Shown: in pieces, positions 2,301 to 43,400 of the stretch
Numbering within the stretch: position 1 is the stretch's first letter
How the letters are laid out: each line of letters opens with the position of its first letter
Source: a virus
Strand: one strand, 5' to 3'
DNA: 46,477 nucleotides
IMG/VR virus record: IMGVR_UViG_3300010885_036964
Span: 1-46,477 of that record
Program-made: the position numbers and the translations under genes
The notes under the pieces: generated by a model
What the model was told of the DNA's origin: nothing
Databases searched by the model: none
Seen by the model: only the letters and a program-made list of their open reading frames with translations

Positions 2301-2310
2301 GGATTCATAC

Positions 2311-21800: not shown

Positions 21801-22314
21801 ACAAGATACAACCGGAACTGTAGCGGAACCCGTGGCACCTACCATTGATCAGTTGACTACTGCTTATGGTGGCCTGCAAGAATATAAGATGCTTTCCGAC
21901 ACATTGATTTTAAACAGTGTAGAATTTCAACCTTTGTTTGGCTCAAAAGCACTGCCTGAATTGCAAGCCACAATTAAGGTTATTCCAACTGCCAACAATG
22001 TGGCCAGCAACAGTGAAATTAAAAATCTTGTAGTGCAATATCTTAATCAATATTTTAGTTTAGATTTATGGAATTTTGGAGACACATTTTATTTTTCTGA
22101 GCTGTCAGGTTACTTGCACGACAAGTTAGCTGGAATAGTCAGCAGTGTGGTACTGGTTCCTCTTAATCAAAACAAATATTTTGGAAATTTATATGAAATA
22201 CGTTGCGCACCCAACCAGATATTTGTCAATGGTGCCACAGTGGCCAATATTGAAGTTATCAGCGCATTGACCAGCACCAATCTACGTACTGCCCCGGGCA
22301 GCGGAGTAATTTAA
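18880..22314 (+). CDS. 6: Baseplate wedge subunit, gp6-like
   Basis: An 1144-residue protein; T4 gp6 has 660, so this one is strongly extended. The N-terminus is typical: RIYQTYQEADFQSYDFETLR, YPETFNDYIESSEFIALLDV, AFRTDLNTRENYIDSAERRD, SVVRLANLVSYTPKRN. Central DQITLNFGDGVFSEIPVGTF and ETINQIKANAPARFYTQNRM, then VNGEDYNNFP match the gp6/gpJ-type wedge core. The C-terminal half is beta-rich and ends with a KVIPTANNVASNSEIKNLVV region that corresponds to the gp6 dimerisation end. gp6 forms the inner iris ring of the baseplate that opens on contraction. Confidence 0.92.
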   Translation: MATTTRQTVIFGVEDWKRIYQTYQEADFQSYDFETLRKSFVDYLRLYYPETFNDYIESSEFIALLDVIAFMGQSLAFRTDLNTRENYIDSAERRDSVVRLANLVSYTPKRNIAASGYLKVFSVQTTENVTDINGIDLANVTVNWADPTNFSWQEQFTAIINAALIDSQRIGVPGAKATILGVDTQEYSINLVPGYLPVVPYTATVDGISMPFEAVTSTIVGQSYVYEPAPRPNGVFNVLFRNDQLGFSSANTGYFFFFKQGVLQNQDFNLADRVSNRTVDINIEGVNNDDRWLYQLDNVGSISKEWEYVPSVYGAAAEQTAPGSRPLFSTTSRTDDQITLNFGDGVFSEIPVGTFRCYVRSSNGLQYIINPQEMQSVSIPISYVSRTGQLETITFSCGITTPVSNAQPRETINQIKANAPARFYTQNRMVNGEDYNNFPYTAYNSILKSKALNRASIGTSRYLELVDNTGKYSSTNTFSSDGALYQSYSLPSFEFTTQTTNETNSIITNQVRPLLGESQAQQFYYAKFPRASLTAQVITWSLSTTQAGTSTGYFANSLGNPVPINGTSSSNARYIVVGSLVKFVAPTGYYFDANNRLQVGSPTRADEKLTIWASPTEIYLDGTNQGLGNFPSGLGPVVLNSYIPTGAIAVQVIPIFVTELSTSLQTNMAEQVRLKRNFGIGYDSLGTITGTAGTWYLITSTNLNVDAPWSQAYAGNTSGAGLDASWFVEFVFNNNFYTVSYRALDYYFGSVVQTRFFFTTDQLIYDSRTGTTISDFINILKTNSQPNSALPLGNDIVTKIVGQPIQTDGLVDDYQILVSFSDKNNDGVPSNPDFFQEIVGTIPNPPTANSPWVFLQQIVDFNNLQRYVLIDSGIVNSLYATETDILLVMEEYIAGQVFYAYQQDTFYVLLIDLTTGVRSLQSTPEYIAQNGRQNLFFQYRHNSPLSNRIDPGTTNIIDVYVVTNEYYIAYQNYIQDTTGTVAEPVAPTIDQLTTAYGGLQEYKMLSDTLILNSVEFQPLFGSKALPELQATIKVIPTANNVASNSEIKNLVVQYLNQYFSLDLWNFGDTFYFSELSGYLHDKLAGIVSSVVLVPLNQNKYFGNLYEIRCAPNQIFVNGATVANIEVISALTSTNLRTAPGSGVI

Positions 22315-25300
22315 TGGCCCGCACAAGATCGGTAGATTTTTTACCAGAAATTTTTCAAACTTCTACCAATAAACAAGTTTTATCGGCCACACTGGATCAA
22401 CTGATTCAAGAGCCACAACTTAAACAAATACAAGGATTTGTAGGACGTCGAGTTGGTCCCGGGGTTAATCCCAATGATCAGTATGTGGCTGAACAAACAT
22501 CAACACGAGCCAACTATCAACTTGAGCCTGGAGTAGTAAAAGTTGACTCCATGGATAGTCACAAGGTTGTTGATGCCATAACCTATCCAGGTATCACCGA
22601 TGCATTAGAATTGCAAGGTGGCATTACTACCAATGCCGACCGTCTCTATACCAGTGAGTACTATAGCTGGGATCCGTTTATTGACTTTGACAAATATGTA
22701 AACTACGCTCAATACTACTGGTTACCCGGCGGCCCTGATGCAGTAGATATTTTTAGTGGCGCGGTGCCAACTACTGACAACTTTGTGGTTACTAGAGCCA
22801 ATGGTGTTTATACATTTGCTGGTGTTTCTGGTACAAATCCTACATTAACTCTAGTACGTGGTGGAAGTTATACATTCCAGGTAGCACAGAATACTGCCAA
22901 CACTGTTGATTTCCGTGTGTCAAATCAAGGAACTAGTGCTTGGGTCATTGACTATGTAAACAATCCTACATTGACACTGGTGCGTGGTAATACCTATACG
23001 TTCACTATGGTACCTACTGCACCATTGCCGTTTTATATTAAAACGCAACAAACTCTGGGTATTAATAATCTTTATAACAATGGTGTAACCAACAATGGCT
23101 CGGCAGTTGGTACAATAACTTTTGTAGTTCCTCAAGATGCCCCGGACGTGTTGTATTACAACAACTCTACGCAAATGAACATGCAAGGGGTGTTTAATAT
23201 TATTGATGCTACTCCGGGCACTGGGCCAGATTTTTGGATTCAAGTCACTCCTGGAGTAAATGGTCGTATACCCAGCACACCTAACATCAGCAGCCGACTT
23301 GGCCCAGTTAATGGAGTAACTGACAATGGTATTGACCTTGGCACAATAACTTTTGATGTTCCACTCAGCACTGCTCAAGATTTTTATTATGGCCTTCCTT
23401 ATATTACATTTAATAATGGCCAGGTCGATCTTATCTGTAATTTGCAGTTTGATCAATTGAATAATATATCTGTGGAGCAGTTTTTAGCACAGTATCCTAC
23501 TGGCATAGATGGTATTACTAATCTTAACGGACGCACACTGATCTTTACTGAAACCAACACAAATCCTGACAGTGGCGGCTGGCTGATTAACAGTCCCTAT
23601 GATCCCTTGATAGAAGATCCCACCAACAACGGCTTGCCTGGGTCCTACGACAGTTTGGTCTATGATCAGACCACACCAATAACCAATGTCAATACACAAC
23701 GCAGTGTATGGCAGGTTAACTACGGTGGCGACCCTACAGCAGGGCAATACATACAGTTGACCAGTGTTTATGAAATAACAGATTTACACAAATTTAATAT
23801 ACAATTTGGCACTGAATATTCCAATACCGGGTGGTATAAAGATTCCGATGGTGCATTCCAACAAATTCCATTGTTGGCGGCCACAAGAAATACATTGTTT
23901 TATCAAGACGGAGTTGACCCGGGCATTTTTGGTGAAATAAAACTCATTGATCAAAGCGCCGCTTCTACATTAGATATTGCCGATATCATTGGCAAGAAAA
24001 ACTACACCAGCCCCAATGGGGTAGTGTTTACCAACGGTCTTAAAGTTGAATTTATTGGCGAAGTTACACCAGCCAGTTATCAACTCAACAGCTATTATGT
24101 AGAAGGAGTCGGCACAGCAATACAACTACTCCCAGTCACAGACTTTGTAACACCCGAGACTTATACACAAAGCTCGTCGGTTCCTTACGACAGCACACGG
24201 TATGATGTAGGCAACTACGATGAGAGTCTAAATCAACCAATCCAACCAAATTACCTCACAATTAATCGTGCCAGTCCAGATCTAAATGCCTGGACTCGTA
24301 GTAATCGGTGGTTTCATATCAGTGTAATTGAACAGTCGTCCTACTACAACAACAGTGTGTTGGCAGTGGACAACGCTGCTCGAGCACGTAGACCCATATT
24401 AGAATACCGTGCTGGAACTCGATTATTTAATTTTGGAACCAAAGGTAAACAACCAATAAACATTATTGATCTAACAACAACCGATGCCCTAAGTGAGGTC
24501 AATGGCTCCACTGGGTTTGGCATAGACGGGTATCAATTAATTTCAGGCAGTCGAGTGGTATTTGCTGTTGACACGGATCCTAATGTTCGAGCTCAGATAT
24601 ACGTGGTGGAATTTATTACCCCCGACACGGTTCCTCCACTGATAGCCGAACCTGTGATTAACTTGGTTCCAGCAACTGATGGCAATGTACTAGTTGACAA
24701 TACTGTAGTTTGTCTTAGTGGCAATACTCTTCAAGGTGTGAGCTTTTGGTTTGATGGTGTAGATTGGATACAAGCTCAAGAAAAGACTACTCCAAACCAA
24801 GCTCCTTTGTTTGATGTGTACGATGCCAATGGCATAAGTTTTTCTAATCCAGTCGCATACCCTAGTAGTAATTTTAGAGGTTGTAAATTATTTTCTTATG
24901 CTACGTCTGACAACAGTAACGATCCAGTGTTGGGCTTTCCAATTAGATATTTAAGTTTGTCTAATATTGGAGATATTGTATTTGATAATAACTTATATAC
25001 TGACACTTTTATCTACACGGTAGACAGCGTAAGTTACACCGAAAATGTCAGTATAGGTTCTGTACGCGAATATCAAGATCGAGTTGCGTATATCCGTGAG
25101 TTAGGATGGCAGACAGCCGTTGTTCCTAGTCGAGCACGTCAACAATTCCAATTTTTATACGACGGTATGCCATTGCAACTTGATGTTGCAGCCTTGACCA
25201 ATAATGTAATACCCAGTGTCCAATTGTATGTAGGCAGTCAATTCCAAGACCCTTACAAATATTCTGTGGCTACCACAACAGACAGTACTACTATAACTTT

Positions 25301-28300
25301 TTCACAAGCAACCTATAATGATGGCACAGCATTTGCATTTGGAGATATCATTGAAGTAGATGTGCTCAGCGATCAAGCCAGCAAAGTAGGTTTTTATCAG
25401 GTTCCTATTAACCTTGAAAATAACCCACTTAATGTTAATAGTCCGTATTTTACTCTAGGCACGGCTAGATCACATTACGAATCAATTTGTCAAAATTTAT
25501 TAGATCTTGAAGGACCAATCAACGGTAACAACAACACTCGAGACCTAGGTAATATTATACCTTACGGCACAAACGCTGTACAAAACAGTGCTCCAATGAC
25601 TCTAGCTGGTTACTTTATGCGATCAGCTCAATATAATATTTTTGAGTCTTTATCTTATAACAGTCGTGAGTATGAGCAATACAAGGCGCAATTATTAAGC
25701 GCCGCAGTGACCAACGATTATACCAATTACACTGTACCAGACATGCTGACTGCAATTGTAACATATCTAGTTGCTGGTCGCACTACCAATAATCCGTTTT
25801 ACTGGTCTGACATGTTGCCGGCCAACCCAGTGAATACAACAAGTACAACAACGTACACGGCCATATCCACGCCTACCTTTAATCTCAACACAACTTATAA
25901 CTTTACTAGTTCAAACTATCAAAGTGTGTTGGTGTATGTGAATGACGTAATTTTACAGTCAGGTTACGACTACGTGGTCAGCGCCGAAGGTCCTACCTTA
26001 ACTATAACTATACCGCTCAGCGTAGGCGATGTAATAACCATAAAAGAGTATGCCACTACTTACGGCACCTTTGTGCCTAACACTCCTACCAAGTTGGGGT
26101 TGTATCCAGCATTCCAACCCAAAATTTATTATGACACAACCTATATTACTCCTTCATTGGTAATACAAGGGCACGATGGCAGCAAGACAATTGCATTTGG
26201 TGACTTTAGAGATCAGTTGTTATTGGAATTTGAAACCAGAATTTTTAATAACTTAAAAATTAAATCAGAAGTGCCACTGACAGTGGCCGATGTTACTCCA
26301 GGACAGTTCCGTACTACAGATTATAGTCTCAGTGAAATAAATCAAATTTTAGCGCCTAGCTTCTTAAGCTGGCTTGGCTGGAACAAATTAACTTATGCTG
26401 AACAAAATTATATTCCTACAAATCAATTTACTTGGAATTATAACGCCAGTGGTAACCGGATCACCAGCACCAACGAATTAACTGAAAAAGCACTTCCGGT
26501 TGGAGCTTGGCGTGGAATCTATCAATATTTTTACGATACTCCAACCCCACAAACTACGCCATGGGAGATGTTGGGCTTTAGCCAACGTCCAACGTGGTGG
26601 GAAAGTGTTTATGGCCCAGCACCTTATACTTCTGGTAACTTAGTACTATGGGAAGACTTAGCCGCAGGCAAAGTAGCAGATCCTGCTGGAACATATTATC
26701 TGCCCAAGTATGCAAGACCGGGACTGACACAAGTGATACCAGTTGACAGCGAAGGACAGTTATTAAGTCCGTTTGTCAGTGTTGTAGGCCTATATGATTC
26801 TAGCCAATTCCAAAAGAGCTGGGTATTTGGCGACGAAGGACCAGTAGAATACAGTTGGCGTACCAGCTCAACCTATCCATTTGCAGTCATGCGCTTGTTG
26901 GCATTGACCAGGCCTGCAGAATTTTTTAGTCTATTTGCTGATAGAGATCTTTACAAGTATAATACTGAGTTTGAACAGTACTTGTACAATAATCGGTACA
27001 GACTAGATGCCAATGGTTTAGAAATTTATGGCAACGGTGTCAGCAAGGCCAGCTTTATTGACTGGATTGTTGATTATAATCAGCAAGCGGGAATTAATTC
27101 AACCAATCAATTGACCGAAGATCTTGGGTTGCTTGATGTAAGATTGTGCTACAGACTGGGTACGTTTACTGATAAACAATATCTTAATATCTATGCAGAA
27201 AAGTCCAGTCCTGATAGTACCAACAGTAGTTTGTTAATTCCTGACAACAGTTATAATTTATTGGTCTATAAAAATCAACCATTTAACCAAGTATTGTACA
27301 GCTCAGTTATTATACAAATAGTCAACGGTGGCTACTCGGTCACTGGTTACAGTCTGACCAATCCATATTTTGAAATACTGGCCAGTCGCACCACAGGTCC
27401 AACAAAAGTTATTTCAGCTGGCGGGTCGACAGTCACAGTGCCAACCACGTATTATCAAAATGTAATACAAGTGCCATATGGGTATACATTTACTAATTTA
27501 ACTGTGGTGGCTGACTTCTTGTTGAGTTATGGCGCATTGTTGGAAAGTCAAGGACTAGTATTTGATTTTAGAGAAAACGGCCGTACTTTGAACTGGGACC
27601 AAATGGTACAAGAATTCTTGTATTGGGCCAACCAAGGATGGACTGTGGGCAGTGTAATTAATTTAAATCCCACAGCTCAACAACTAACAGTGATTACTCC
27701 AGAAGCAGTGATTGATTCTGTTGTGGCACAAACACCAGAAAATTTAATACTGGATCAAAATAGAACTACAATTCCAGCTAGAGATCTTGTAATTGATCGT
27801 TATGAAAACACATTCCAGGTAAACAGTTTAACTACACAAACTGTGAGCTATATTGCCCTGAAATATACCAATTATGAAAGTCTAGTAGTGTTAGATAATG
27901 TCAGTGTATTCAATGACTTGATATATGATCCAGCCACCGGTGCCAGACAAAGTCGCGTAAACGTTACAGCATCAGTCAGCGCAGAGTGGAACGGTCAGTT
28001 AGACGCACAAGGATTTATATACAATGATGACCGTACAGTAAAACAATGGGAACCACTGAAAAAGTATACCAAAGGTGAAATTGTTATCTACAAAAATAAT
28101 TATTGGTCCGCAGTTAATATAGTACAACCGTCGGCACAATGGAATCAGGCTGATTGGTTGCAAAGCAACTATACCAAAATACAACGTGGTATGTTGCAAA
28201 ATATTTCTTTGCAGGCTGATCAATTGGCCACCAGTTATGATGTTAACCAAGCCAATTTAGAGCTTGAGCAGGATTTATTTGCCTTTGGACTGATTGGTTT

Positions 28301-31300
28301 CCGTCCACGACAATACATGGTTGATTTAGAACTGGATGACATTAGCCAAGTTAGTCTATATCAACAGTTTATCAAAGACAAAGGTACTCTTAACAGTGTA
28401 CAGTTGTTGACCAACGCAAATTTAAACAAAGAAACAGCACAATATCAAATATTTGAAAATTGGGCCATCTTGCGTGGAATATATGGTGCCAATGCCAACC
28501 GCAGATTTATTGAGATGCGTCTTAATGAAGCGTTGTTGGTATCGAACCCTAGCACAGTGCAGATAATTGAACCTCAGCAAACAAGCATAGCCGATCAAAC
28601 CATATTGTACAATAACTTGTGGCGTGAGAGTTATAACATAACCAGTGCAGAAATTTTCCCAACCTTTATAGCACCAATTACAGACACTGCCTTGCCCAGT
28701 GCAGGTTATGTAAATTTAAATGATGTAGACATAACAGTATTTGATCTTGAAGGTCAGTTGGGACTGGCCACTGGTGTGTTGAACACAGTCGGTATCGGCA
28801 CAACTATTTGGGCTGCCAAGAGCAATACCTACGATTGGAACATATATAGAAGTACCAAAGTACCGGGCTACGTCAGCTCAGCAACTCCCAATCTCAATGG
28901 CACCACAGTTATAACATTTACACAGCCTCCTGGACTGACAATTGGAGATGTGGTCATACTGAGATTTGTAGATACCACAGTAGATGGCGTATATCGTGTA
29001 CTAGCTAGACCAACGTTGACATCAATCGCAGTTGAACTGACAATATCAAACACCATCACCGGTGCCGGTATAGCATTTAGTTTACAAACCATGCGTGTCA
29101 GCCAGGCCAGCGATGTATTAAATTTACCATATGTAAATGATTTATTACCGGGCGCTATGGCTTGGGTCGACAACGACGGAACTGGCCATTGGGAAGTTTT
29201 AATGAAGACCGATCCGTTTGTAGAGTCTCAACTGCTGGTTCCAGTAATTCCAGAATCCAATTCTGGGTATGGCTCTAGTATCGCTCAAGGATATCAAAAC
29301 ATCATGGCCATGGTTGGCGCACCAACCTATGGCACAGATGGCGCAATCTATACCTACCTTAAAGACGCTACTGCTAACTACGCAGAAAATACCATACTGT
29401 TATTAAACGCCACTGGCACACAAGGCTATGGCAATGCTGTACAGATAGGATATCAAAATTGGGCCATTGCTGGAGCCAGTCTCAGCAATAACAATCAAGG
29501 ATATGCTGTAGTCATATATCGAGGCACCGGCAGTTCAGCATTTGAGCAAGCACAATTGTTGGTAGCGCCAGACTTAGATTTTGACAATGCTGAATTTGGC
29601 CACAGTGTAACTATAAGTCAAGACGAACGCTGGATGTATGTATCAGCACCAGGAAAAAATAAAGTTTATGCCTATGGACGTGTAGACCAACCATATCAAT
29701 CAGCAACATTTATTACCCCAGGAACTTATCAAGTTTATAACGTTGGTGGTATGTTGGAATTTAATGACGAAAATCAATTGGCAGTGGTATTAAACAACGA
29801 ACTGTTGACCCTTGGAGTTGATTATACTGTGGCAGGTACCGTGGTTAATTTGACCACAGTACCGATTCAGGGCGAAAAGTTAATTATAACTCGAAAAGTT
29901 GAACATGCTATTATAGGCGATGGCAGCACTGAGGTATACCCGCTTGACCCATATCTGTACACCGCAACCAATATCTACAGTTTTTCAGTCTATGTGGATG
30001 ACATAATACAAGTTCCTGAAATTGATTACGATTTCAATAGTGACAGTGCATTGTTCAATTCAGATCTTGTGTTTACCACTGCTCCAGCAGATGGCGCACT
30101 GATTAATGTGGTGGCTCGTACATACTGGCAATATATTGATTCAATCACAGTGCCTGGCCTGAGTGCAGATGCAAACTTTGGTTCAGATATTCACACTGCC
30201 ACAGATGGCCGCCAGGTGCTGATTGGAGCCAGCTATGATTCTTCCAACACTGTTCCACATTGTGGGGCTGTGTATGCGTTTGACCGCAGCGTGACACGTT
30301 ACATTATCGATGATACAGCACAACTCAGTTATGCGTTGCCAGCAGGTTTCCAAGATCCAGTGGCAGTAATTTTAAACAGTCAATATTTGACCAACAGTGC
30401 CCAATTTATTGATGGTGGATTTTCTGTAGTTGGCAACGATGTAGTGTTGAATGTTACATTGAGCGTAGGGGATATCCTAGAACTTGAAAGCAATATCTTT
30501 ACTCAAATGCAAAAGATTACTCCAGCTGTGCCATATGACGAATCTCAATTTGGTGCTGCTGTTGATTTGTGTCCAAACAACTGTAGCATTTACATAGGTG
30601 CACCGGTTGACGGAACAGTCATAGCTGGAGCAGGATCAGTACAACGAAATGTTAACCAAGCTCGTGTGTATGGAACTATCACATCCACAAACATAAACCC
30701 TACACTAACTCCGGGCAATACCATACGTATTAACAATACCCCTGTTGCAGTAACAACTCCAACCACATGGGTAATTGGATTAACCTATGCACCAGGATCA
30801 TTTGTAATTAACAGTGGTTCTATCTATCGAGCCGTGGCTGCAGTTCCAGCAAACACATTGCTCTCAAATACAGAATATTGGACATTATCTAATTGGGCAG
30901 CGTACTACGCAAACGACATTGTTTCTGCTGGGATACCTAATGTCACAGCCAGTTCAGCCAACGGATTGTTAACTATTAGTGTAGTCAACACAGCAGCCGC
31001 TGACGAATTCAGCAGATTAACAGTATTGCCAGGCATCAGTGGAACAGCATTTGCAGATCTTGGATTTGTATCCTATGCGTTTACGCAAACCATAACAAGT
31101 CCAAACCCCACAGTCAGTGCCAATTTTGGCGCGGCATTAAATATCGACAGTTCAGCCACAGTGCTAGTGGTTGGTGCACCACGTGGAGATCTATTCGAAG
31201 GGGAAGTGTTTGATGGTGGAAAAACATATTTTGATGATCGTAGCACCACATTCTTTAGCTATGTTCTGCAGAGCGGTGTAGTTTATACATTTGATTATTT

Positions 31301-34300
31301 GTCTAGCGCCACTGACACTGTAACAAATCCAGGCAAGTTTGTTTTTGGACAACAGGTGTACGATACTGATATACGATCCTTAGACCAATGGGGCACCGCG
31401 GTCAATTATACAAATGGAAAATTGTTAATAGGCAGCCCCGGTAGCGATCTTGGCGATAGTTCAGTTAACTATGGCCGAGTAAAAGAGTTTGATAATTTAA
31501 CTCTGTTACCAGCTTGGCAAATTGTACATAGACAACAGCCGGTGGTGGATGTCCACTTGTTAAACGGTGCATACATGTATAACAAGTTAGAAAACTCAGA
31601 AACCTATTTCTTTGATTATATTGATCCATTACAAGGCAAGATACTGGGTGTTGCTAGACAAAATATCAACTTTATTGGTGCAGTAGACCCAGCCAAATAT
31701 AATTCTGGGCCTACCAATAACAACGGCAACTTCTGGGGGGCTGACAGAGTAGGAGAAATATGGTGGGATACCACCGGCGCAAGATTTATTGATCCTAACC
31801 AAGATGATATTGTATACGCTAGCCGTCGCTGGGGTCAGTTATTCCCTGGCAGCACTGTGGATGTTTATCAATGGATCTCTAGTGCTGTTCCACCAGCTGA
31901 ATACACAGGCGAAGGGCAACCTTTGGATACGGTCAGCTACACAGTTAGAGCTCAACTAAACACATTTGGCACATTTGAAACAATTTATTATTTCTGGGTC
32001 ACAGGGCTTACCAGTATAAACACCACTGCAGGTAAAACTCTCAGTACCACAGCAATTGCTAGTTATATTGAAGATCCGCGAAGCAGCGGGATACCTTATA
32101 TTGCCGCACTTGATGCCAGCACAGTGGCAATCTACAATGGATCGCAATATCTGTCGGCCAGCGATACTATATTACATGTGGATTTTTCACAGATACTGTC
32201 CGACAACAATGTACATACCGAGTTCCAACTCATTGCCGACGGCAATCCAAAAAGTTTCCTAGCAGGTAATCTTTATCAGAAACTACAAGACAGTTTCTGT
32301 GGATACAACGTAACAGGTTTCCAAGTACCAGATCCATTCTTGAGTCCACCTGAGCGGTACGGTGTTCAGTTTAGTCCAAGACAAAGTATGTTTGTTAGTC
32401 GCTTCTTGGCGCTAGAAAATTATCTAACACGAGCCAACGCAATATTGAAATATTTGCCTATAGCGGAATTGCGTAGATTTGTGTTGTTAAATTCCAGTGA
32501 ACCAGTGCCTGCACCTGGCAGCGAAGCTTATAACAAAGTGTTGGATACTGTAGAACAGTTGAGTTATCAAGATCTTGCTCGAGTTCCATTGGGTTACAAT
32601 TACTTAATACTGTCTGACAGTACTTACAGCGGAGCCTGGACCATATACACTGTTGTATTAGATTCTGCCCTACCTACTGCTCCAAAAGTTACACAATTGT
32701 CACGGATCCAGAATTTTAATACAAAAAACTATTGGACATACATTGACTGGTACCAATTGGGCTATAATTCTTCAACGATTCCAGTCGCCCAAGTTCCAAA
32801 TTATGCCAGCCTAGCAACACTTACAGTGGCAGTGGGCAGCAGTGTTGAGGTCACAGCAAACGCACAAAACAAATGGGAGATTTATCTTAAAACCAATACT
32901 GGTTGGGACCGAGTAGGCCTCCAAGATGGTACTATTGCATTTGATCAATCGCTATGGGACTATTCTATTGGACGCTTTGGGTTTGATATCGAAGTGTTTG
33001 ATGCACAATTTTATGATCAAGAACCAGTAATAGAAACACGCAACATTATACAAGCCATCAATGACGAATTGTTTACGGATGATCTGAGCATTTTCCGAAA
33101 TCAACTGTTGACTTTGATGTTCCAATTTATTTTGTCAGAAGAACAAGCTCCAGACTGGTTGACCAAGACCAGCCTGATTGACGTCCGTCACGACCTACGT
33201 GAACTGGTTCCGTTCCAGACATATCGTCAAGACAATCAAACATTTGTTTCCGATTATCTTCAAGAGGTTAAACCATACCATGTGCAGGTTAAAGATTTTA
33301 ATTTGGTTTACAATGGATTAGATGAATATCCTGGCACGTTGACTGACTTTGACTGCCCTAGTTATTATGATACTGCTTTACAATCGCCGCAGTATGTTAG
33401 TCCAATCCTGTTGCCTTATACACAGAGTACTGCCACAGGAACAGGAACAGCCAGCGATATTTCCGACACTGAATCTAATGCAGAAATTTGGGCAGTGACA
33501 CCCTGGAGTGATTGGTTTGATAATTATTTGTTAAGTTTGCAATCAATTGATATGTCTGCGGTGGGGTCCGGCTATACATCTCCGCCTACAGTGACCATTG
33601 GCACTGAATGGCAAGCCAATACTGCGTACACAATTGGACAACAAATATTTTATGGAACTAACCTGTATTCAGTAACTGTAGCAGGAACATCGGGCTCCGA
33701 CGCACCAACATTTACCACCGGTAGTCTAGTCAACGGAACAGCTACTTTAACATATGTAGGAACAGCGGCTACAGGAGTAGCCGTGATTAATTCTCAACTG
33801 CAAGTGGTTGCAGTCAATATTGTTGAAGCCGGGTCCGGATATACTACTACACCCGTGGTGATATTGACCAGTGACAGCGGCTCCGGTGCCCGTGCCTATG
33901 CGTACATGGGCAATGATCTTGTGCGTAATTTCAACATGACTATCAAATATGACCGTTATGAATACACAAGTACCATTGCTGACTGGAGTTATCTAGTAGA
34001 AAATTATCCTGTAAACACTCAGGTTCGTTACATAGACAGGGTTTGGCAAGCAATCAGCACCATAAACAATACGCCAATCATAGTTTCCGCTGTAGGAACA
34101 GCTGGAGAATACACTTTAACTTTATCATCGTCTGCTGGATTAGGAACAGGATTGATTGTTACAGGGTTAGGAATTCCTCCTGGTACAATTATTACTCAAT
34201 ATAGTTCTGGCAGTAATACCATAGAAATTAGCCAAGCATTGTTAGTCACAATTAATTCTGAACTGGTAAATTTTTACGATCCATTTATATTTGAACAATG

Positions 34301-36749
34301 GGATAGCGTGGCGGCCAGTTCGCTTAGTGGTATCAACCGTACACAAGGTTTCTACATGCCAACTGTTAATCAGCCAGGCCGCAGTTTACCACTGTTAATA
34401 GATGGCCTTGACTATCCTGGTGTACAAGTGTATGCATTAGATTTTTCATACAACACTGGGTACGATGTAGGCAATTATGATATCAATCCATTTGACAATA
34501 TTAGCTACAGCCCAGAAGGTATTGTAACCTATGATCCAGCCCTGTTAGATGCCCAGTATTCAAGTGCATATGTAGATCCGTTCCTGGGCACAAGACCCAC
34601 AGATATCAATGTTGATGGTGGTGGCTATATAGACATATTCAGCAGTTATGCTCCAGAAGAGTTGGTCCCTGGAAGTGAATTTGATACCTTGGATTTCCGA
34701 GTATATACTGCACCTGGATCGGACTATGACGGACTTGGGCATGGATTCCCGGCAGCATCGGTACGTTATACCTATGATCCTACAAACCCTGTACTGAGTT
34801 TTGCTGGACTATTACAAAATCCATTTACAGTGGTTGTGTTTAATGCAACACTAGGGCTGGCCATTGAAGCAGTCAACTATGACTGGGTCAATTATGAAGT
34901 CACAGTGGGACTCACTGAAACCGCAGGAGATGTGTTGGACCTTTATGTAACTGGTGTTGGTGGCGGAAATCAACTATATCTCAATACCTATTTGGGCAGC
35001 GACGTGGGCAATGAACTTACAGTTCCAATCTCAGTAGAGATTATTTCAGAATTCCTGATCTACAATGGTGAGGTTATGTTGGTCGAAGGAGTTGATTACA
35101 CCTACGCTGCCACTGGCAATCAATCAACTATGGTTACTTTTGTTGACACCTATGGCGCCACCGATCGTATTAATCTAGCAGTGTTTGGTTACGCATCAAC
35201 AGGTACAACTACCAGTTGGAGTTTACCTGTATTTGAAACCATTGTGTCCAACGGCAATGATACTTATGATTTAACCAGTAGTTTCCAAGGAACTAATCAG
35301 GTCAATATTATTGTTACTGTAAATGGCGCAAGACTCCGACCTTATCAAGGTGTGTCTGCTGTGGGTGATGGAAGTACTACTACATTTGAATTGCCCAACA
35401 ATAATGGATATGATCCTATGCTCATGTCAGACAACGACGTAATAGTTTATGTTGATAATGTGAAGGCCATACAAGGCAGCACATATGTAATTAACCCAGA
35501 CGATAGCTCAGTACCTCGTACCATAACATTTGCCGAAGCCCCAGTTGATGGCGCTGACATATTAATGTCGGTTGCCACCAATTCAGAATATCGAGTATAC
35601 AATAATGCGTTGACATTCTTATCTGGACACGTTCCAGTTGTGGGGGATATCATTGATGTAATAACTTGGAACGATACTTCAGAACAAGGATTAGAAACAC
35701 AAGTATTTGTTGGCCCAAGTGTTGACAATAATAATACGTTTGATCTTGGTCGCATTGTTGCTAACCCAGAAAGATTACTAGTAGCGTTAGATCCAGATGG
35801 AATATTAGGCGGCCGTTGGTTGTTTAATGGACTTGATTACCTTGTCGAAGGAACCAAGATAACACTGAGTGGACCCACTATTGATTCTAACGCTGTTTTA
35901 GCCGTTACCCTTTTCACTAACAGTGTAGTTCCTAGCCCAATGACTTTCCGCATATTCCAAGACATGCGTGGAGTGCAGGCCACTTATCGTATTACACCGT
36001 CAAGCACAACTGAATTAGCAACCGCAGTCAACAACACCGACGACATTATCTATGTAACCGATGCTTCTGCACTAAGCGAACCAAATTTTGCCGCAGATTT
36101 TAATATTAATTTTGTATATAGCACAGGTGATGTGGTCATGTATAATGGTCTTTTCTATCAGGCTATTGGCCCAACTACTGGAAATTTACCAACCGATACT
36201 GCCTATTGGTCCCCAACAACCGGTGCAGCCAACACCTGGGGTGTGCTTACTATTGATGCTGAGCGCATTATGTATCGTCATCGCGACACTGTTGCTAACA
36301 CAGTCAGCGGACTGTTGCGAGGCACCGCAGGAACAGCCATCACTTCTCATGCAGTCGATGCCTATGTATATGACATGGGACGTGGCAATTTAATGCCCGA
36401 GACTTGCCAAAATTACATAGTGTCCAATGTGACCTATCCGTTAATATCTGGAGAAAATCTTGGCGATGGCTCCACAACAGAATTCATAGCCGATATTGAT
36501 ATTTCACAGGAAGACAGCACCATACGCGATGAAACCGTTGAAGTATACATAGGTGGCGAACGCATACAGGATGGATACACTATAACCAATCCAGATCCTG
36601 TAACTGTGTTATTTGATACGCCACCACCAGCAGGTGTAGAAGTTACTATTTTAGTGCGTCGAGCACACAGTTGGTACAACACAGCAACTCCAGCATTGCC
36701 ACTGGTTGAAACCGATACTATTTGTGCAAGGTTTTTACGAGGCCAATAA
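22314..36749 (+). CDS. Giant multi-domain baseplate/fiber structural protein (gp7 position)
   Basis: At 4811 residues it occupies 31% of the window. It lies where T4 has gp7 but is almost five times longer. The N-terminus (SVDFLPEIFQTSTNKQVLSA, FVGRRVGPGVNPNDQYVAEQ) matches the large structural proteins of cyanophage-like T4 relatives. Visible modules: cupredoxin-like (175-300, with a 42-residue duplicated piece); at least nine beta repeats of the type VYVDxxxQ...DY...F...G..I; four CBM5/12-like motifs (near 1912, 2819, 3766 and 4600); seven FG-GAP-like repeats between 2318 and 3061; KPYHVQ near 3670; and a C-terminal SGLLRGTAGTAITSHA. It probably forms the outer baseplate and host-contacting surface. 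Its ATG overlaps the gp6 TAA by 1 nt. Confidence 0.88.
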   Translation: MARTRSVDFLPEIFQTSTNKQVLSATLDQLIQEPQLKQIQGFVGRRVGPGVNPNDQYVAEQTSTRANYQLEPGVVKVDSMDSHKVVDAITYPGITDALELQGGITTNADRLYTSEYYSWDPFIDFDKYVNYAQYYWLPGGPDAVDIFSGAVPTTDNFVVTRANGVYTFAGVSGTNPTLTLVRGGSYTFQVAQNTANTVDFRVSNQGTSAWVIDYVNNPTLTLVRGNTYTFTMVPTAPLPFYIKTQQTLGINNLYNNGVTNNGSAVGTITFVVPQDAPDVLYYNNSTQMNMQGVFNIIDATPGTGPDFWIQVTPGVNGRIPSTPNISSRLGPVNGVTDNGIDLGTITFDVPLSTAQDFYYGLPYITFNNGQVDLICNLQFDQLNNISVEQFLAQYPTGIDGITNLNGRTLIFTETNTNPDSGGWLINSPYDPLIEDPTNNGLPGSYDSLVYDQTTPITNVNTQRSVWQVNYGGDPTAGQYIQLTSVYEITDLHKFNIQFGTEYSNTGWYKDSDGAFQQIPLLAATRNTLFYQDGVDPGIFGEIKLIDQSAASTLDIADIIGKKNYTSPNGVVFTNGLKVEFIGEVTPASYQLNSYYVEGVGTAIQLLPVTDFVTPETYTQSSSVPYDSTRYDVGNYDESLNQPIQPNYLTINRASPDLNAWTRSNRWFHISVIEQSSYYNNSVLAVDNAARARRPILEYRAGTRLFNFGTKGKQPINIIDLTTTDALSEVNGSTGFGIDGYQLISGSRVVFAVDTDPNVRAQIYVVEFITPDTVPPLIAEPVINLVPATDGNVLVDNTVVCLSGNTLQGVSFWFDGVDWIQAQEKTTPNQAPLFDVYDANGISFSNPVAYPSSNFRGCKLFSYATSDNSNDPVLGFPIRYLSLSNIGDIVFDNNLYTDTFIYTVDSVSYTENVSIGSVREYQDRVAYIRELGWQTAVVPSRARQQFQFLYDGMPLQLDVAALTNNVIPSVQLYVGSQFQDPYKYSVATTTDSTTITFSQATYNDGTAFAFGDIIEVDVLSDQASKVGFYQVPINLENNPLNVNSPYFTLGTARSHYESICQNLLDLEGPINGNNNTRDLGNIIPYGTNAVQNSAPMTLAGYFMRSAQYNIFESLSYNSREYEQYKAQLLSAAVTNDYTNYTVPDMLTAIVTYLVAGRTTNNPFYWSDMLPANPVNTTSTTTYTAISTPTFNLNTTYNFTSSNYQSVLVYVNDVILQSGYDYVVSAEGPTLTITIPLSVGDVITIKEYATTYGTFVPNTPTKLGLYPAFQPKIYYDTTYITPSLVIQGHDGSKTIAFGDFRDQLLLEFETRIFNNLKIKSEVPLTVADVTPGQFRTTDYSLSEINQILAPSFLSWLGWNKLTYAEQNYIPTNQFTWNYNASGNRITSTNELTEKALPVGAWRGIYQYFYDTPTPQTTPWEMLGFSQRPTWWESVYGPAPYTSGNLVLWEDLAAGKVADPAGTYYLPKYARPGLTQVIPVDSEGQLLSPFVSVVGLYDSSQFQKSWVFGDEGPVEYSWRTSSTYPFAVMRLLALTRPAEFFSLFADRDLYKYNTEFEQYLYNNRYRLDANGLEIYGNGVSKASFIDWIVDYNQQAGINSTNQLTEDLGLLDVRLCYRLGTFTDKQYLNIYAEKSSPDSTNSSLLIPDNSYNLLVYKNQPFNQVLYSSVIIQIVNGGYSVTGYSLTNPYFEILASRTTGPTKVISAGGSTVTVPTTYYQNVIQVPYGYTFTNLTVVADFLLSYGALLESQGLVFDFRENGRTLNWDQMVQEFLYWANQGWTVGSVINLNPTAQQLTVITPEAVIDSVVAQTPENLILDQNRTTIPARDLVIDRYENTFQVNSLTTQTVSYIALKYTNYESLVVLDNVSVFNDLIYDPATGARQSRVNVTASVSAEWNGQLDAQGFIYNDDRTVKQWEPLKKYTKGEIVIYKNNYWSAVNIVQPSAQWNQADWLQSNYTKIQRGMLQNISLQADQLATSYDVNQANLELEQDLFAFGLIGFRPRQYMVDLELDDISQVSLYQQFIKDKGTLNSVQLLTNANLNKETAQYQIFENWAILRGIYGANANRRFIEMRLNEALLVSNPSTVQIIEPQQTSIADQTILYNNLWRESYNITSAEIFPTFIAPITDTALPSAGYVNLNDVDITVFDLEGQLGLATGVLNTVGIGTTIWAAKSNTYDWNIYRSTKVPGYVSSATPNLNGTTVITFTQPPGLTIGDVVILRFVDTTVDGVYRVLARPTLTSIAVELTISNTITGAGIAFSLQTMRVSQASDVLNLPYVNDLLPGAMAWVDNDGTGHWEVLMKTDPFVESQLLVPVIPESNSGYGSSIAQGYQNIMAMVGAPTYGTDGAIYTYLKDATANYAENTILLLNATGTQGYGNAVQIGYQNWAIAGASLSNNNQGYAVVIYRGTGSSAFEQAQLLVAPDLDFDNAEFGHSVTISQDERWMYVSAPGKNKVYAYGRVDQPYQSATFITPGTYQVYNVGGMLEFNDENQLAVVLNNELLTLGVDYTVAGTVVNLTTVPIQGEKLIITRKVEHAIIGDGSTEVYPLDPYLYTATNIYSFSVYVDDIIQVPEIDYDFNSDSALFNSDLVFTTAPADGALINVVARTYWQYIDSITVPGLSADANFGSDIHTATDGRQVLIGASYDSSNTVPHCGAVYAFDRSVTRYIIDDTAQLSYALPAGFQDPVAVILNSQYLTNSAQFIDGGFSVVGNDVVLNVTLSVGDILELESNIFTQMQKITPAVPYDESQFGAAVDLCPNNCSIYIGAPVDGTVIAGAGSVQRNVNQARVYGTITSTNINPTLTPGNTIRINNTPVAVTTPTTWVIGLTYAPGSFVINSGSIYRAVAAVPANTLLSNTEYWTLSNWAAYYANDIVSAGIPNVTASSANGLLTISVVNTAAADEFSRLTVLPGISGTAFADLGFVSYAFTQTITSPNPTVSANFGAALNIDSSATVLVVGAPRGDLFEGEVFDGGKTYFDDRSTTFFSYVLQSGVVYTFDYLSSATDTVTNPGKFVFGQQVYDTDIRSLDQWGTAVNYTNGKLLIGSPGSDLGDSSVNYGRVKEFDNLTLLPAWQIVHRQQPVVDVHLLNGAYMYNKLENSETYFFDYIDPLQGKILGVARQNINFIGAVDPAKYNSGPTNNNGNFWGADRVGEIWWDTTGARFIDPNQDDIVYASRRWGQLFPGSTVDVYQWISSAVPPAEYTGEGQPLDTVSYTVRAQLNTFGTFETIYYFWVTGLTSINTTAGKTLSTTAIASYIEDPRSSGIPYIAALDASTVAIYNGSQYLSASDTILHVDFSQILSDNNVHTEFQLIADGNPKSFLAGNLYQKLQDSFCGYNVTGFQVPDPFLSPPERYGVQFSPRQSMFVSRFLALENYLTRANAILKYLPIAELRRFVLLNSSEPVPAPGSEAYNKVLDTVEQLSYQDLARVPLGYNYLILSDSTYSGAWTIYTVVLDSALPTAPKVTQLSRIQNFNTKNYWTYIDWYQLGYNSSTIPVAQVPNYASLATLTVAVGSSVEVTANAQNKWEIYLKTNTGWDRVGLQDGTIAFDQSLWDYSIGRFGFDIEVFDAQFYDQEPVIETRNIIQAINDELFTDDLSIFRNQLLTLMFQFILSEEQAPDWLTKTSLIDVRHDLRELVPFQTYRQDNQTFVSDYLQEVKPYHVQVKDFNLVYNGLDEYPGTLTDFDCPSYYDTALQSPQYVSPILLPYTQSTATGTGTASDISDTESNAEIWAVTPWSDWFDNYLLSLQSIDMSAVGSGYTSPPTVTIGTEWQANTAYTIGQQIFYGTNLYSVTVAGTSGSDAPTFTTGSLVNGTATLTYVGTAATGVAVINSQLQVVAVNIVEAGSGYTTTPVVILTSDSGSGARAYAYMGNDLVRNFNMTIKYDRYEYTSTIADWSYLVENYPVNTQVRYIDRVWQAISTINNTPIIVSAVGTAGEYTLTLSSSAGLGTGLIVTGLGIPPGTIITQYSSGSNTIEISQALLVTINSELVNFYDPFIFEQWDSVAASSLSGINRTQGFYMPTVNQPGRSLPLLIDGLDYPGVQVYALDFSYNTGYDVGNYDINPFDNISYSPEGIVTYDPALLDAQYSSAYVDPFLGTRPTDINVDGGGYIDIFSSYAPEELVPGSEFDTLDFRVYTAPGSDYDGLGHGFPAASVRYTYDPTNPVLSFAGLLQNPFTVVVFNATLGLAIEAVNYDWVNYEVTVGLTETAGDVLDLYVTGVGGGNQLYLNTYLGSDVGNELTVPISVEIISEFLIYNGEVMLVEGVDYTYAATGNQSTMVTFVDTYGATDRINLAVFGYASTGTTTSWSLPVFETIVSNGNDTYDLTSSFQGTNQVNIIVTVNGARLRPYQGVSAVGDGSTTTFELPNNNGYDPMLMSDNDVIVYVDNVKAIQGSTYVINPDDSSVPRTITFAEAPVDGADILMSVATNSEYRVYNNALTFLSGHVPVVGDIIDVITWNDTSEQGLETQVFVGPSVDNNNTFDLGRIVANPERLLVALDPDGILGGRWLFNGLDYLVEGTKITLSGPTIDSNAVLAVTLFTNSVVPSPMTFRIFQDMRGVQATYRITPSSTTELATAVNNTDDIIYVTDASALSEPNFAADFNINFVYSTGDVVMYNGLFYQAIGPTTGNLPTDTAYWSPTTGAANTWGVLTIDAERIMYRHRDTVANTVSGLLRGTAGTAITSHAVDAYVYDMGRGNLMPETCQNYIVSNVTYPLISGENLGDGSTTEFIADIDISQEDSTIRDETVEVYIGGERIQDGYTITNPDPVTVLFDTPPPAGVEVTILVRRAHSWYNTATPALPLVETDTICARFLRGQ
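22836..22997 (+). repeat. Duplicated cupredoxin-like strand pair in the giant protein
   Basis: NPTLTLVRGGSYTFQV (from residue 175) recurs 126 bp later as NPTLTLVRGNTYTFTM (from residue 217). The second copy continues into the rest of a cupredoxin-like domain: PFYIKT, NGVTNNGSAVGTITFVVPQD, LYYNN...MQG. Copies differ at many third positions, so this is an old duplication. Confidence 0.8.
29265..31497 (+). repeat. Region of seven FG-GAP-like repeats in the giant protein
   Basis: Seven blade-like units begin at residues about 2318 (GYGSS...VGAP), 2371 (GYGNA...AGAS), 2427 (EFGHS...VSAP), 2620 (NFGSD...IGAS), 2744 (QFGAA...IGAP), 2936 (NFGAA...VGAP) and 3024 (QWGTA...IGSP), each followed by a GxVYxF-like strand. 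This is the FG-GAP pattern of integrin-alpha-type beta-propellers. The longer gaps between units 3 to 6 hold inserted fiber-type beta modules and one CBM-like motif. Confidence 0.75.
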
Positions 36750-36768: not shown

Positions 36769-36915
36769 ATGGAAAAAAATACTCAACAACCTGCACAAAT
36801 TAAACCTGTTGCTAAACCCAAACGGCCCAACGAAACGGGCGCTATTTCGGTTGAAGGTTTTTTAAAAATATTTGATCCTAAAACTAAAGAGACATTTGTG
36901 GAGAAACGAGCATGA
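36769..36915 (+). CDS. Small 48-residue protein resembling the N-terminus of the next gene
   Basis: An ATG at 36769 with AAGG 12-15 nt upstream opens a 48-codon frame ending at TGA 36913-36915, which overlaps the next ATG as ATGA. The product is Lys/Pro-rich at first (QIKPVAKPKRPNETG) and then reads AISVEGFLKIFDPKTKETFV and EKRA. This aligns with residues 5-28 of the following protein (LAKIEGFVKITDPNSGEVLV, DKKNA). It looks like a stand-alone copy of that protein's first beta-hairpin. Ribosome-binding site, overlap and similarity together make it a real gene. Function unknown; probably a small virion component. Confidence 0.75.
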   Translation: MEKNTQQPAQIKPVAKPKRPNETGAISVEGFLKIFDPKTKETFVEKRA

Positions 36916-37529
36916 TTCAACCAGGCCTGGCAAAAATTGAAGGGTTTGTCAAGATCACTGATCCTAATTCAGGTGAGGTGTTAGTAGACAAAAAGAATGC
37001 AATTCATTATGAAAATATCAGTATTGCCATGGCACGTACTTTGAGCAATCGCACAAGTGCGCAAGGCGGCGGCTGGATATATGAAATGGCATTTGGCAAC
37101 GGTGGTAGCAGTGTGGACCCAACTGGTGTTATCACATATTTGCCACCTAACATTACTGGGCAAAATGCAGATTTATACAACGAAACCTATGCCAAAGTAG
37201 TGGACGATAACAGTGCAGACGATACAGATACTGCCAACAATTACATGACTGTGGTACATACCACCGGTAGACCTTATACAGATATTATCGTGACTTGTTT
37301 GCTAGATTATGGCGAACCGCCTGGACAGCAAGCATTTGACAACAGTACCAACTTCAACGGAGAATATGTATTTGACGAGCTAGGGCTTAAATCCTGGGCT
37401 GGCAGCGCAACAGAGTTGTTGTTGATTACCCATGTGATTTTTCATCCGGTACAAAAAAGTTTGAACCGGCAAATACAGATAGAATATACCTTACGTATTC
37501 AGACTCTTACTAACCTAAGTGCTGTATAA
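36912..37529 (+). CDS. Virion structural protein (baseplate/fiber cluster)
   Basis: A 205-residue protein. The N-terminal hairpin IEGFVKITDPNSGEVLVDKK precedes AIHYENISIAMARTLSNR and a Gly-rich GGGWIYEMAFGNGGSS segment; the C-terminus has VFDELGLKSW, LLLITHVIFHPVQKS and QIQIEYTLRIQT. The pattern matches small structural proteins next to the giant baseplate gene in T4-like aquatic phages, as I recall them; no T4 counterpart is identified. It is coupled to the 48-residue gene by ATGA. Its stop codon lies within a late-promoter-like TATAAATA that serves the next gene. Confidence 0.65.
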   Translation: MIQPGLAKIEGFVKITDPNSGEVLVDKKNAIHYENISIAMARTLSNRTSAQGGGWIYEMAFGNGGSSVDPTGVITYLPPNITGQNADLYNETYAKVVDDNSADDTDTANNYMTVVHTTGRPYTDIIVTCLLDYGEPPGQQAFDNSTNFNGEYVFDELGLKSWAGSATELLLITHVIFHPVQKSLNRQIQIEYTLRIQTLTNLSAV

Positions 37530-37579: not shown

Positions 37580-38860
37580 ATGTCATATACAATTAATTTA
37601 ACTGATGGATCAGTATTAACTACCATTGCTGATGGTACCCTCAATACTACCGCTAGTAGCATGGCCTTACCTGGCAAAAACTACGCTGGTTATGGTATAT
37701 ATTTGGATGAAAATTTTGTCCACTTGTTAGAAAATAGCTCTTTTACTTCACCACCTACTACTCCGTTGATTGGTCAATTATGGTGGGATTCTGGCGCCAC
37801 CACTATGAATGTATGGAATGGAACTGTTTGGAAAACCATTAGTTCAGCCACATCCAGCGCATCAGCACCTACATCAAACGTAGCCGGTGATTTATGGTAC
37901 GACACTGTTAATCAACAGTTGAATGTTTACTCGGGCACTACTTGGATTCTAGTGGGACCAGCATTTACTTCCGCACAAGGAACCACTGGTGCGATTCCAG
38001 CCACAGTGACTGACAGTTCTGCAGTTGCACATACCATTTTACAACTTTATGTAGGTGGCATTTTGTTAGGTATCATGAGCAAAGATACCACTGCATTTAC
38101 GCCTAGTCCAGCTATATCTGGATTTGCCACTATTAAACCAGGACTACAACTTAGTTCAGTCAGTGCCGCTTACTTGTTCCAAGGATTGATCACCAATGCC
38201 GAACAGCTTAACGGACTTTCATCCACGTCGTTTATGCGAGCAGATGCAGCTGCAACAACCACTGGCAAGATAACTACAACCAATAATCAAGGTTTATCTA
38301 TCGGCTCCAATAATGATTTCACTGTGGCAATTGCAGGATCTGATGTAGTCTTGACCAACAACGATTCTAATGGCAACATAAACTTTGGTGCCAACATTGC
38401 CGGCACACCTACCACTGTGATGACCATCAATGGATCCACTGGTGTTATTAGTGGTACGCAGATTGATGCCAACTACGCTGACTTGGCAGAACGCTTTGAA
38501 GCTGATGCAGAATTGGCTCCTGGAACCGTGGTCGAACTGGGCGGAATCAATGAAATTACTCAAGTTACTAGTGATCTGAGCGAAAATGTGTTTGGGGTCA
38601 TAAGTACTAGGGCAGCATATATGATGAACAGTCGAGCTGGTACAAATGCTACACATCCCCCAGTTGCAATGACTGGACGAGTACCGGTTAGAACTATTGG
38701 GCAAGTGCGCAAAGGCGAGAGATTGGTTAGTGCAGGAAACGGGCTGGCAAGAGCAGCACAAGCTGGCGAAGCCACAGCATTTAATGTAATCGGTCGTGCG
38801 TTAAAAGACAAGCTAGACGACAGTGAAGGCACTGTTGAAGCGATTGTAACAATTAAATAA
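37580..38860 (+). CDS. Tail fiber protein with conserved C-terminal fiber domain
   Basis: A 426-residue protein. The N-terminal half has repeated LWWD/LWYD units (PLIGQLWWDSGATTMNVWNG, NVAGDLWYDTVNQQLNVYSG), the short beta repeats of phage fiber shafts. The middle is Thr/Ser/Asn-rich. The C-terminal part (about 300-426) begins YADLAERFEADAELAPGTVV and continues with VFGVISTRAAYMMN, ALTGRVPV-like MTGRVPVRTIG and VRKGERLV, a domain common at the end of phage fibers. The first part recalls the DYAEYFE motif of Peptidase_G2-type self-cleaving fiber domains, but no cleavage site can be claimed. It has its own late promoters. Confidence 0.8.
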   Translation: MSYTINLTDGSVLTTIADGTLNTTASSMALPGKNYAGYGIYLDENFVHLLENSSFTSPPTTPLIGQLWWDSGATTMNVWNGTVWKTISSATSSASAPTSNVAGDLWYDTVNQQLNVYSGTTWILVGPAFTSAQGTTGAIPATVTDSSAVAHTILQLYVGGILLGIMSKDTTAFTPSPAISGFATIKPGLQLSSVSAAYLFQGLITNAEQLNGLSSTSFMRADAAATTTGKITTTNNQGLSIGSNNDFTVAIAGSDVVLTNNDSNGNINFGANIAGTPTTVMTINGSTGVISGTQIDANYADLAERFEADAELAPGTVVELGGINEITQVTSDLSENVFGVISTRAAYMMNSRAGTNATHPPVAMTGRVPVRTIGQVRKGERLVSAGNGLARAAQAGEATAFNVIGRALKDKLDDSEGTVEAIVTIK

Positions 38861-39990: not shown

Positions 39991-40305
39991 ATGGATACCA
40001 ACGAACTTATTTCCCACAGCCGTGCCCGCTTTGATCATCATCAGGCCCGTATTGTGCTCAAAGAAAAATATCAGGCCAAAATGACCTTTGCCTATGGCGG
40101 AGGCATGTGGCGAGCAGGACCCGATCTTATTAACTTGTTAACTACATCATTAGAACACGGGCAACAAGGATTGGTATTGCTTGATCTATATGATACCCCA
40201 GTTATGGTTGATTACAAAGAACTATTAAAACTAGCACAACAACGCTGGCAAGAGCAAATGAATGCCTGGTTGGTAGAATATGAAGAACTGAATCGTAACA
40301 GATGA
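39991..40305 (+). CDS. Small conserved phage protein, function unknown
   Basis: A 104-residue, mainly helical soluble protein (HSRARFDHHQARIVLKEKYQ, MTFAYGGGMWRAGPDLINLL, DLYDTPVMVDYKELLKLAQQ, EQMNAWLVEYEEL). It recalls a small family found in marine T4-like phages, by the EKYQAKMTFAYGGGMW core; I cannot name a function. The start lacks a ribosome-binding site and lies just after a TATAATAA box, so it could be leaderless; no better ATG exists before the conserved core. The stop overlaps the glycosyltransferase ATG as ATGA. Confidence 0.7.
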   Translation: MDTNELISHSRARFDHHQARIVLKEKYQAKMTFAYGGGMWRAGPDLINLLTTSLEHGQQGLVLLDLYDTPVMVDYKELLKLAQQRWQEQMNAWLVEYEELNRNR

Positions 40306-41108
40306 CACAAGGAGTTCTTTTATTTGCATATAACAATGAGCACATTGACTATTTGGCCATGGCCGCATGGTCAGCTCAAAACATACGTAGACACTTAAAT
40401 TTACCAGTGTGTGTGGTTACTGATACACCAGACATTCCAGAATCATATCGATTTGATCAAGTAGTGCGTGTAGCGTTACCAGAAGAAGAACAAAAACGAT
40501 ATTTTAAAGATTACAAAGATGTCGGCGCCTGGCACAATAAAAATCGATCTAATGCGTATGAGTTGAGCCCATGGGATCACACCCTGGTGTTGGATGTTGA
40601 TTTTGTAGTAGCATCCGATCAACTAACACGGTTGTTTGATATTGATCAAGATTTTCTTGCACATCGGTGGGCGTATGATGTTTCTGGATTTTCGGCATTT
40701 CAAGACAACAACTGGTTTGGCACATACAAGATGCCAATGAGTTGGGCAACCATTATGTGTTTTCGTCGTAGTAAGAAAGCAGAATTAATTTTCAATAGTA
40801 TGCAAATGATTCGCGACAACTGGCTACATTACCGACAACTATATCAGGTCAGTGAACATACTTTTCGCAATGATTATGCCTTAAGCATAGCAATGAACCT
40901 AGTAGATGGTCATACTCTCAGCACACCATCAATACCTTGGCAGTTGGCTTCGGTTACTCCTGAAACCAAATTGACACAGGTTGATCCAGATACATATAAA
41001 ATACAATATGAATCAACTAATTCTAAACCAAAATGGATGTTACTACAACAGGATTTTCATGCCATGGGTAAACAAGCACTAGGAGAAATTGTTGCCAATC
41101 CTTGCTGA
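40302..41108 (+). CDS. Glycosyltransferase-like protein (GT-A fold), DxD motif
   Basis: A 268-residue protein. VLLFAYNNEHIDYLAMAAWS followed by LPVCVVTDTPD is the N-terminal nucleotide-binding half of a GT-A fold, and TLVLDVDFVVAS provides a DxD-type motif (D98-V-D100) for metal and nucleotide-sugar. Further pieces are HRWAYDVSGFSAFQDNNWFG and MCFRRSKKAELIF. It resembles the phage relatives of GT8-like enzymes; donor and acceptor are unknown. The gene begins inside the stop of the preceding gene (ATGA) and overlaps the next, related gene by about 20 nt. Confidence 0.7.
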   Translation: MTQGVLLFAYNNEHIDYLAMAAWSAQNIRRHLNLPVCVVTDTPDIPESYRFDQVVRVALPEEEQKRYFKDYKDVGAWHNKNRSNAYELSPWDHTLVLDVDFVVASDQLTRLFDIDQDFLAHRWAYDVSGFSAFQDNNWFGTYKMPMSWATIMCFRRSKKAELIFNSMQMIRDNWLHYRQLYQVSEHTFRNDYALSIAMNLVDGHTLSTPSIPWQLASVTPETKLTQVDPDTYKIQYESTNSKPKWMLLQQDFHAMGKQALGEIVANPC

Positions 41109-43399: not shown

Positions 43400-43400
43400 A

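Follow-up and report, generated by a model that had tools for sequence, protein, structure and literature searches.

FG-GAP repeats and predicted fold

The window analysed here is the whole 46,477-base virus record IMGVR_UViG_3300010885_036964, in which one single open reading frame (22314–36749, + strand) encodes a giant virion protein of 4811 amino acids (aa) next to a gp6-like baseplate wedge gene. Residues 2318–3061 of this frame (29265–31497) hold seven FG/YG/WG...GAP-like cores, which start at residues 2319, 2372, 2428, 2622, 2746, 2938 and 3026. A sequence-only reading had proposed seven FG-GAP-like units in this stretch, and both blade hidden Markov models (HMMs) and shuffled sequences bear this out, with the last blade ending at residue 3073, slightly past residue 3061.

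A Pfam-A search of residues 2297–3144 matched FG-GAP_2 (PF14312; E 4e-12, 46.5 bits; gathering score 23 bits), and the family still exceeded its cut-off when the full 4811-aa protein was searched (26.6 bits). The best match covered residues 2611–2656, in blade 4, and FG-GAP_2 was matched in all 55 relatives (E <= 0.01). The profile check proposed beforehand thus held for the FG-GAP family in the form of FG-GAP_2, but not for the model it had named: classical FG-GAP (PF01839) had no match in the window, and two of the 55 relatives matched it at E <= 0.01. A blade HMM that had the window in its training set scored seven blades at 26–76 bits, whereas 500 shuffles of the same stretch gave at most two domains per shuffle over 4 bits (best, 10.2 bits). 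Retraining on distant relatives only, with about 25–30% slot identity, recovered the same seven units at 28.4, 2.1, 41.2, 39.9, 63.9, 36.7 and 30.8 bits, unit 2 being weak in this model, which gave zero positive-scoring matches outside the seven across the 4811 aa. Exactly seven blades were found in 52 of the 55 non-redundant relatives; the other three have one weak eighth match.

AlphaFold2 modelled residues 2270–3097, using 55 sequences, with a predicted local distance difference test (pLDDT) of 91.8 and a predicted template modelling (pTM) score of 0.90, and the compact relative L056, which has few insertions, with values of 86.4 and 0.87. Assigned to blades according to the repeats that they match, the 28 model strands fell into seven sets of four, and the extra modules were predicted to form loops, the arrangement that the sequence-only reading had envisaged. 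Judging from these models, residues 2318–3073 almost certainly make up a complete seven-bladed FG-GAP (integrin-alpha-type) beta-propeller. Closure of the ring is likewise predicted, from the pTM score, the pattern of strands and the alignments to integrins described below.

The propeller occupies a slot (residues 2310–3068, 758 aa; 29241–31517, +) defined by comparison across relatives and preceded by a conserved lead-in (residues 2270–2309; 29121–29240, +) with the motif WVDxDxxGxWxVxxK, which is also recognisable in relatives with an empty slot. Lead-in positions W15, W24 and K29 (alignment numbering) are invariant in 55 sequences. All parts of the propeller are encoded on the + strand. Blade 1 (residues 2318–2362; 29265–29399; 44.0 bits) and blade 2 (2371–2416; 29424–29561; 26.3 bits, 2.1 in the distant-only model) each have four model strands. 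In blade 3, strands A–C (2428–2457; 29595–29684; 57.4 bits) are separated from strand D (2604–2611; 30123–30146), as placed by the model, by insertion 1, a C-D loop of 146 aa predicted to form beta-rich modules (2458–2603; 29685–30122). Loop analysis placed insertion 2, of 56 aa (2665–2720; 30306–30473), between strands A–C of blade 4 (2622–2664; 30177–30305; 55.4 bits) and its model strand D (2721–2735; 30474–30518), and insertion 3, of 139 aa (2782–2920; 30657–31073), between strands A–C of blade 5 (2746–2781; 30549–30656; 75.6 bits) and its model strand D (2921–2927; 31074–31094). Blade 6 (2938–3015; 31125–31358; 48.6 bits) contains a 32-aa B-C loop, and together these four elements account for the inserted modules that had been noticed by eye between units 3 and 6. 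Blade 7 (3026–3073; 31389–31532; 46.9 bits) ends in a strand, WQIVHR, that continues into the conserved core, and W799 of the slot alignment is invariant.

The insertions lie in C-D loops of neighbouring blades 3, 4 and 5 and therefore should extend from the same face. Across the 55 relatives, these loops range over 3–319 aa in blade 3, 0–126 aa in blade 4 and 3–250 aa in blade 5; the A-B loops of the window propeller are short (2–5 aa). Matches to the T7 tail-fibre N-terminal family, some reaching the threshold and others close to it, occur in slot insertions of several relatives: the best E is 3e-8, in one member, and others have about 2e-5, just below the cut-off.

The giant baseplate gene and its slot

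The giant gene starts on the final base of the gp6-like wedge gene directly upstream (18880–22314, +; phrog_10646, E 4.5e-274), which follows a gp25-like wedge gene (18460–18834, +; phrog_261/43), giving the order gp25-gp6-giant; further baseplate genes also lie ahead of the gp6-like gene. The giant protein matches phrog_10938, 'virion structural protein', with E 6e-216 over its N-terminal part and 2e-54 over its C-terminal part. Homologs are present in about 60 jumbo phage records, and the core matches giants of 3300–4600 aa in RaK2, 121Q, GAP32, PA5oct, Atu_ph07, Phosso, SCTP-2 and others. Giants of the RaK2/121Q/PA5oct/Atu_ph07 kind share the N-terminal, middle and 3068–3740 core of the window protein but, in the cultured phages, lack the propeller. 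Gene order is the same in these relatives where annotated, and core homology together with the gp25-gp6-giant order places the window protein in the phrog_10938 giant family. The PA5oct homolog was seen in virions by mass spectrometry (record notes). In phAPEC6, the 382-kDa gp245 was found in virions and adjoins the wedge protein gp244 (PMC7247149); its size and position suggest that it is a homolog of the giant protein. Because of the gene order and the virion proteomics of relatives, the giant protein likely sits in the baseplate. The sequence-only reading had called it a baseplate protein, and the context supports that description: it is a virion protein whose gene neighbours are gp25 and gp6.

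The giant gene is followed by a gene for a conserved 205-aa protein (36912–37529, +; phrog_11259, E 5e-75), which also trails it in relatives with enough downstream sequence, and by a gene for a fibre-like protein (37580–38860, +). The N-terminal part of the latter occurs nearby with or without the propeller: it is present in loci with a propeller, an empty slot or a split giant gene. The C-terminal part of the giant protein itself (residues ~4160–4811; 34800–36749) carries CBM5/12 matches over the cut-off (36.6 bits) and repeated beta modules of the VYV(D/N)G...DYT type.

An IMG/VR scan with the conserved flank as the query returned 80 loci. With the slot itself as the query, tblastn of phage records gave the C-terminal flank only and a single-sequence IMG/VR scan gave nothing. 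The propeller is present in 72 of the 80 loci, including two (L089 and L093) that begin inside it and leave only the last blades visible; complete propeller-bearing slots span 497–963 aa. Five loci (L051, L052, L053, L055 and L059) have an empty slot of 2–13 aa with intact flanks. Three others (L061, L066 and L084) have two genes in place of the giant gene, with the break exactly at the slot: the first frame stops soon after the WVD lead-in, and a purine-rich stretch and an ATG start the second frame within ~25 bases (L061:9950-9975, L084:9950-9975 and, in L066, around 4094-4120). The split in these three contigs is a natural gene fission at the point of domain insertion.

Among cultured relatives, ten giants were scanned with the blade model, which found blades in none. 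The slot holds ~54–56 aa in 121Q, RaK2, GAP32 and XaC1, and unrelated sequence in SCTP-2, Atu_ph07 and Phosso. It seems to be a general domain-acceptance site, because cultured jumbo phages fill it with other sequence. The fillers of SCTP-2 (residues ~1966–2374 of its giant) and Atu_ph07 (residues ~2080–3170) had no Pfam matches and are unannotated and beta-rich; the latter has GGxGxGA-type repeats, and a LamG-like reading of the former, made by eye, was unsupported by Pfam.

On a core tree of 90 rows, built by a quick method and with long outgroup branches, the presence of the propeller required three changes; when the cultured phages serve as the outgroup, these are one gain and two losses. 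One of the losses left the empty slot, the other the split gene. The propeller is an optional module. In 17 of 18 close pairs, conservation is lower in the slot than in either flank (for example, 64.7% versus 78%), so the slot evolves faster than its flanks.

Integrins and other viral propellers

A single-sequence PDB search gave nothing, but a profile search found integrin alpha-4, IIb, 5, 6 and M at E 3e-9. Foldseek placed integrin alpha chains first for both the window and L056 models (probability 1.00). For L056, 50 of 50 among the matches listed were integrins, with E down to 7e-15 and a best target-normalised TM of 0.62, over a 440-residue headpiece chain; identity in the structural alignments was very low, at 8–16%. 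Profile and fold thus agree on integrin alpha chains as the nearest solved structures, as the integrin-like label given from the letters would imply. Animal integrins bind other molecules via a seven-bladed propeller of this kind, and the integrins alpha-4, alpha-IIb and alpha-V have seven four-stranded FG-GAP blades, as predicted for the window. Unlike them, the window propeller has big modules inserted into blades 3–5 at their C-D loops and sits inside a phage virion protein with no beta-chain partner; no Pfam domain corresponding to the integrin thigh, calf or transmembrane parts was found in the 4811 aa. Integrin blades also bear DxDxDG-type calcium loops, whereas a pattern scan found no D.[DN].[DN]G in the window slot, where the A-B loops span just 2–5 aa. 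Since the calcium-binding blade loops are absent, metal-regulated integrin-like binding is not expected.

Propellers have been described on phage baseplates before, contrary to the expectation from the sequence alone that no such domain was on record. A seven-bladed propeller, gp131C (PDB 4GBF), lies at the baseplate periphery of jumbo phage phiKZ, and the receptor-binding protein Gp45 of phi11 has five-bladed propellers at the baseplate (PMC4901313); neither is known to be of the FG-GAP type. Although phiKZ gp131C resembles the window propeller in its seven blades and its jumbo myophage origin, it is RCC1-like by a weak Pfam match and has no FG-GAP signal. Moreover, gp131 is a separate 771-aa tail protein, whereas the window propeller is a loop insertion in a gp6-adjacent giant. 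A sequence relation between the two was tried and rejected (hhalign probability 0.2% against the window family). Like the window propeller, phi11 Gp45 is a candidate ligand-binding platform on a phage baseplate, but it differs in having five blades, in being the trimeric receptor-binding protein of a siphophage and in having mostly carbohydrate-degrading enzymes as its nearest folds.

BFVD also yielded predicted propellers from other phages and from giant viruses of algae and protists, with target-normalised TM up to 0.80; judged by their names, these FG-GAP proteins are mostly different proteins from different viruses and not gp6-adjacent baseplate proteins. One of the Foldseek propeller matches is a stand-alone 393-aa 'hemagglutinin' of Agrobacterium phage Atu_ph07 (A0A2L0UZX4; target-normalised TM 0.67). 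Among jumbo phages, Sinorhizobium phage Phosso shows another, separate use of such propellers: its giant baseplate protein is without them, and its gene 108 (L096:5901-16979, − strand; PV764938 57900-68978) encodes a 'hypothetical protein' of 3692 aa in which FG-GAP repeats number in the dozens (FG-GAP_2, 560 bits; ~40 blade-model matches over most of its length), with space for at least five propellers and with C-terminal laminin-G-type domains. The openly available literature yielded no paper joining FG-GAP with a phage baseplate or tail fibre. What is already known is that phage baseplates carry propellers; what is new is the integrin-alpha type, the protein context and the wide distribution in an uncultured clade. 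Phage baseplates thereby join integrins and giant-virus proteins as sites of FG-GAP propellers.

Candidate functions of the propeller

Taken as a whole, the data are best explained by a single-gain FG-GAP propeller that serves as a ligand-binding platform on the baseplate edge, which we regard as probable. From the tree, the propeller entered once, in the common ancestor of this uncultured jumbo phage group, where it was inserted in a loop on the surface of the giant encoded after gp6 in the baseplate gene block. It would project from the edge of the baseplate and bind a host cell-surface glycan or protein, perhaps in a reversible or secondary step of adsorption; the disc would act as a rigid scaffold, and the loop modules would contribute to the contact surface. 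Projection from the edge and a role as a ligand platform appear most likely because the module is dispensable and faster evolving, and because it displays length-variable beta-modules on the C-D loops of three neighbouring blades. For a receptor or adhesion function as such, we consider the chances evenly balanced. Somewhat more tentatively, an integrin-type propeller may have been gained independently as an exchangeable adhesion head, the disc serving as a fixed scaffold and host contact being tuned by swapping or growing the C-D loop modules of blades 3–5.

Several points weigh against the ligand-platform reading. Since two clades lack the propeller, tail function in general does not require it, and the faster evolution of the slot also fits simple relaxation. 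The core of the giant protein had no detectable relation to any solved structure; homology to T4 gp7 was rejected (hhalign probability 0.2–0.3% for three core segments, with a single sequence on the T4 side), only the gene position being alike.

The chief rival to a ligand-binding or adhesion role is fibre docking: tail fibres or other virion proteins would dock on the propeller, whose loop modules would be domains of the anchor type, fixing a fibre to the wedge. The T7 tail-fibre N-terminal domain anchors its fibre, and the matches to that family in the inserted modules of several relatives speak for docking, as does the precedent of myophage A-1(L), whose long tail fibre is held by an insertion domain of the wedge (PMC10966104). 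A docking surface, however, would be expected to be more conserved than its flanks, and the slot is less conserved. The conserved N-terminal part of the downstream fibre-like gene also accompanies the propeller, the empty slot and the split gene alike. Dependence of that fibre on the propeller was rejected, because this part is present in all slot states. We therefore regard docking as doubtful. The long, tolerant loops and the two losses, with the rest of the protein kept, would also suit a structural spacer or stabiliser of an enlarged baseplate that has no specific partner; such a role is improbable, as it leaves unexplained both the strict retention of seven blades (52/55) and the build-up of modules in the C-D loops.

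A depolymerase, with the propeller as the scaffold of a glycan-degrading enzyme, might be considered, given that some phage propellers resemble enzymes, as discussed for phi11 Gp45 (PMC4901313), and that CBM5/12-type modules lie at the C-terminal end of the giant protein. It is very unlikely: Pfam matched no enzyme family in the slot, and the nearest folds of L056 among the matches listed were integrins in 50 of 50 cases, with no glycosidases. Least credible is that there is no propeller, and that a string of separate beta-sandwiches has glycine-rich strands resembling FG-GAP by chance. The 8–16% identity to integrins would allow this, but the FG-GAP_2 matches, the seven-unit HMM results, the AlphaFold2 model and the Foldseek integrin matches strongly disfavour it.

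Whether as a ligand platform or as a fibre dock, the propeller is a part that could plausibly contact the host or hold fibres, and it belongs to a jumbo-phage virion protein that is among the largest and least understood. The gp6-adjacent giant has a defined loop that takes whole domains, sheds them cleanly or breaks into two genes, and the natural propeller, empty-slot and split-gene versions offer ready comparisons.

Genome-contig scans found no relatives and no host hint. Radical SAM and glycosyltransferase-like genes lie on both sides of the tail block (2311–5431, − strand; 40302–46477, + strand), and one of the radical SAM genes has a weak B12-binding match. In the related phage Phosso, annotated radical SAM genes also lie just downstream of the giant gene.

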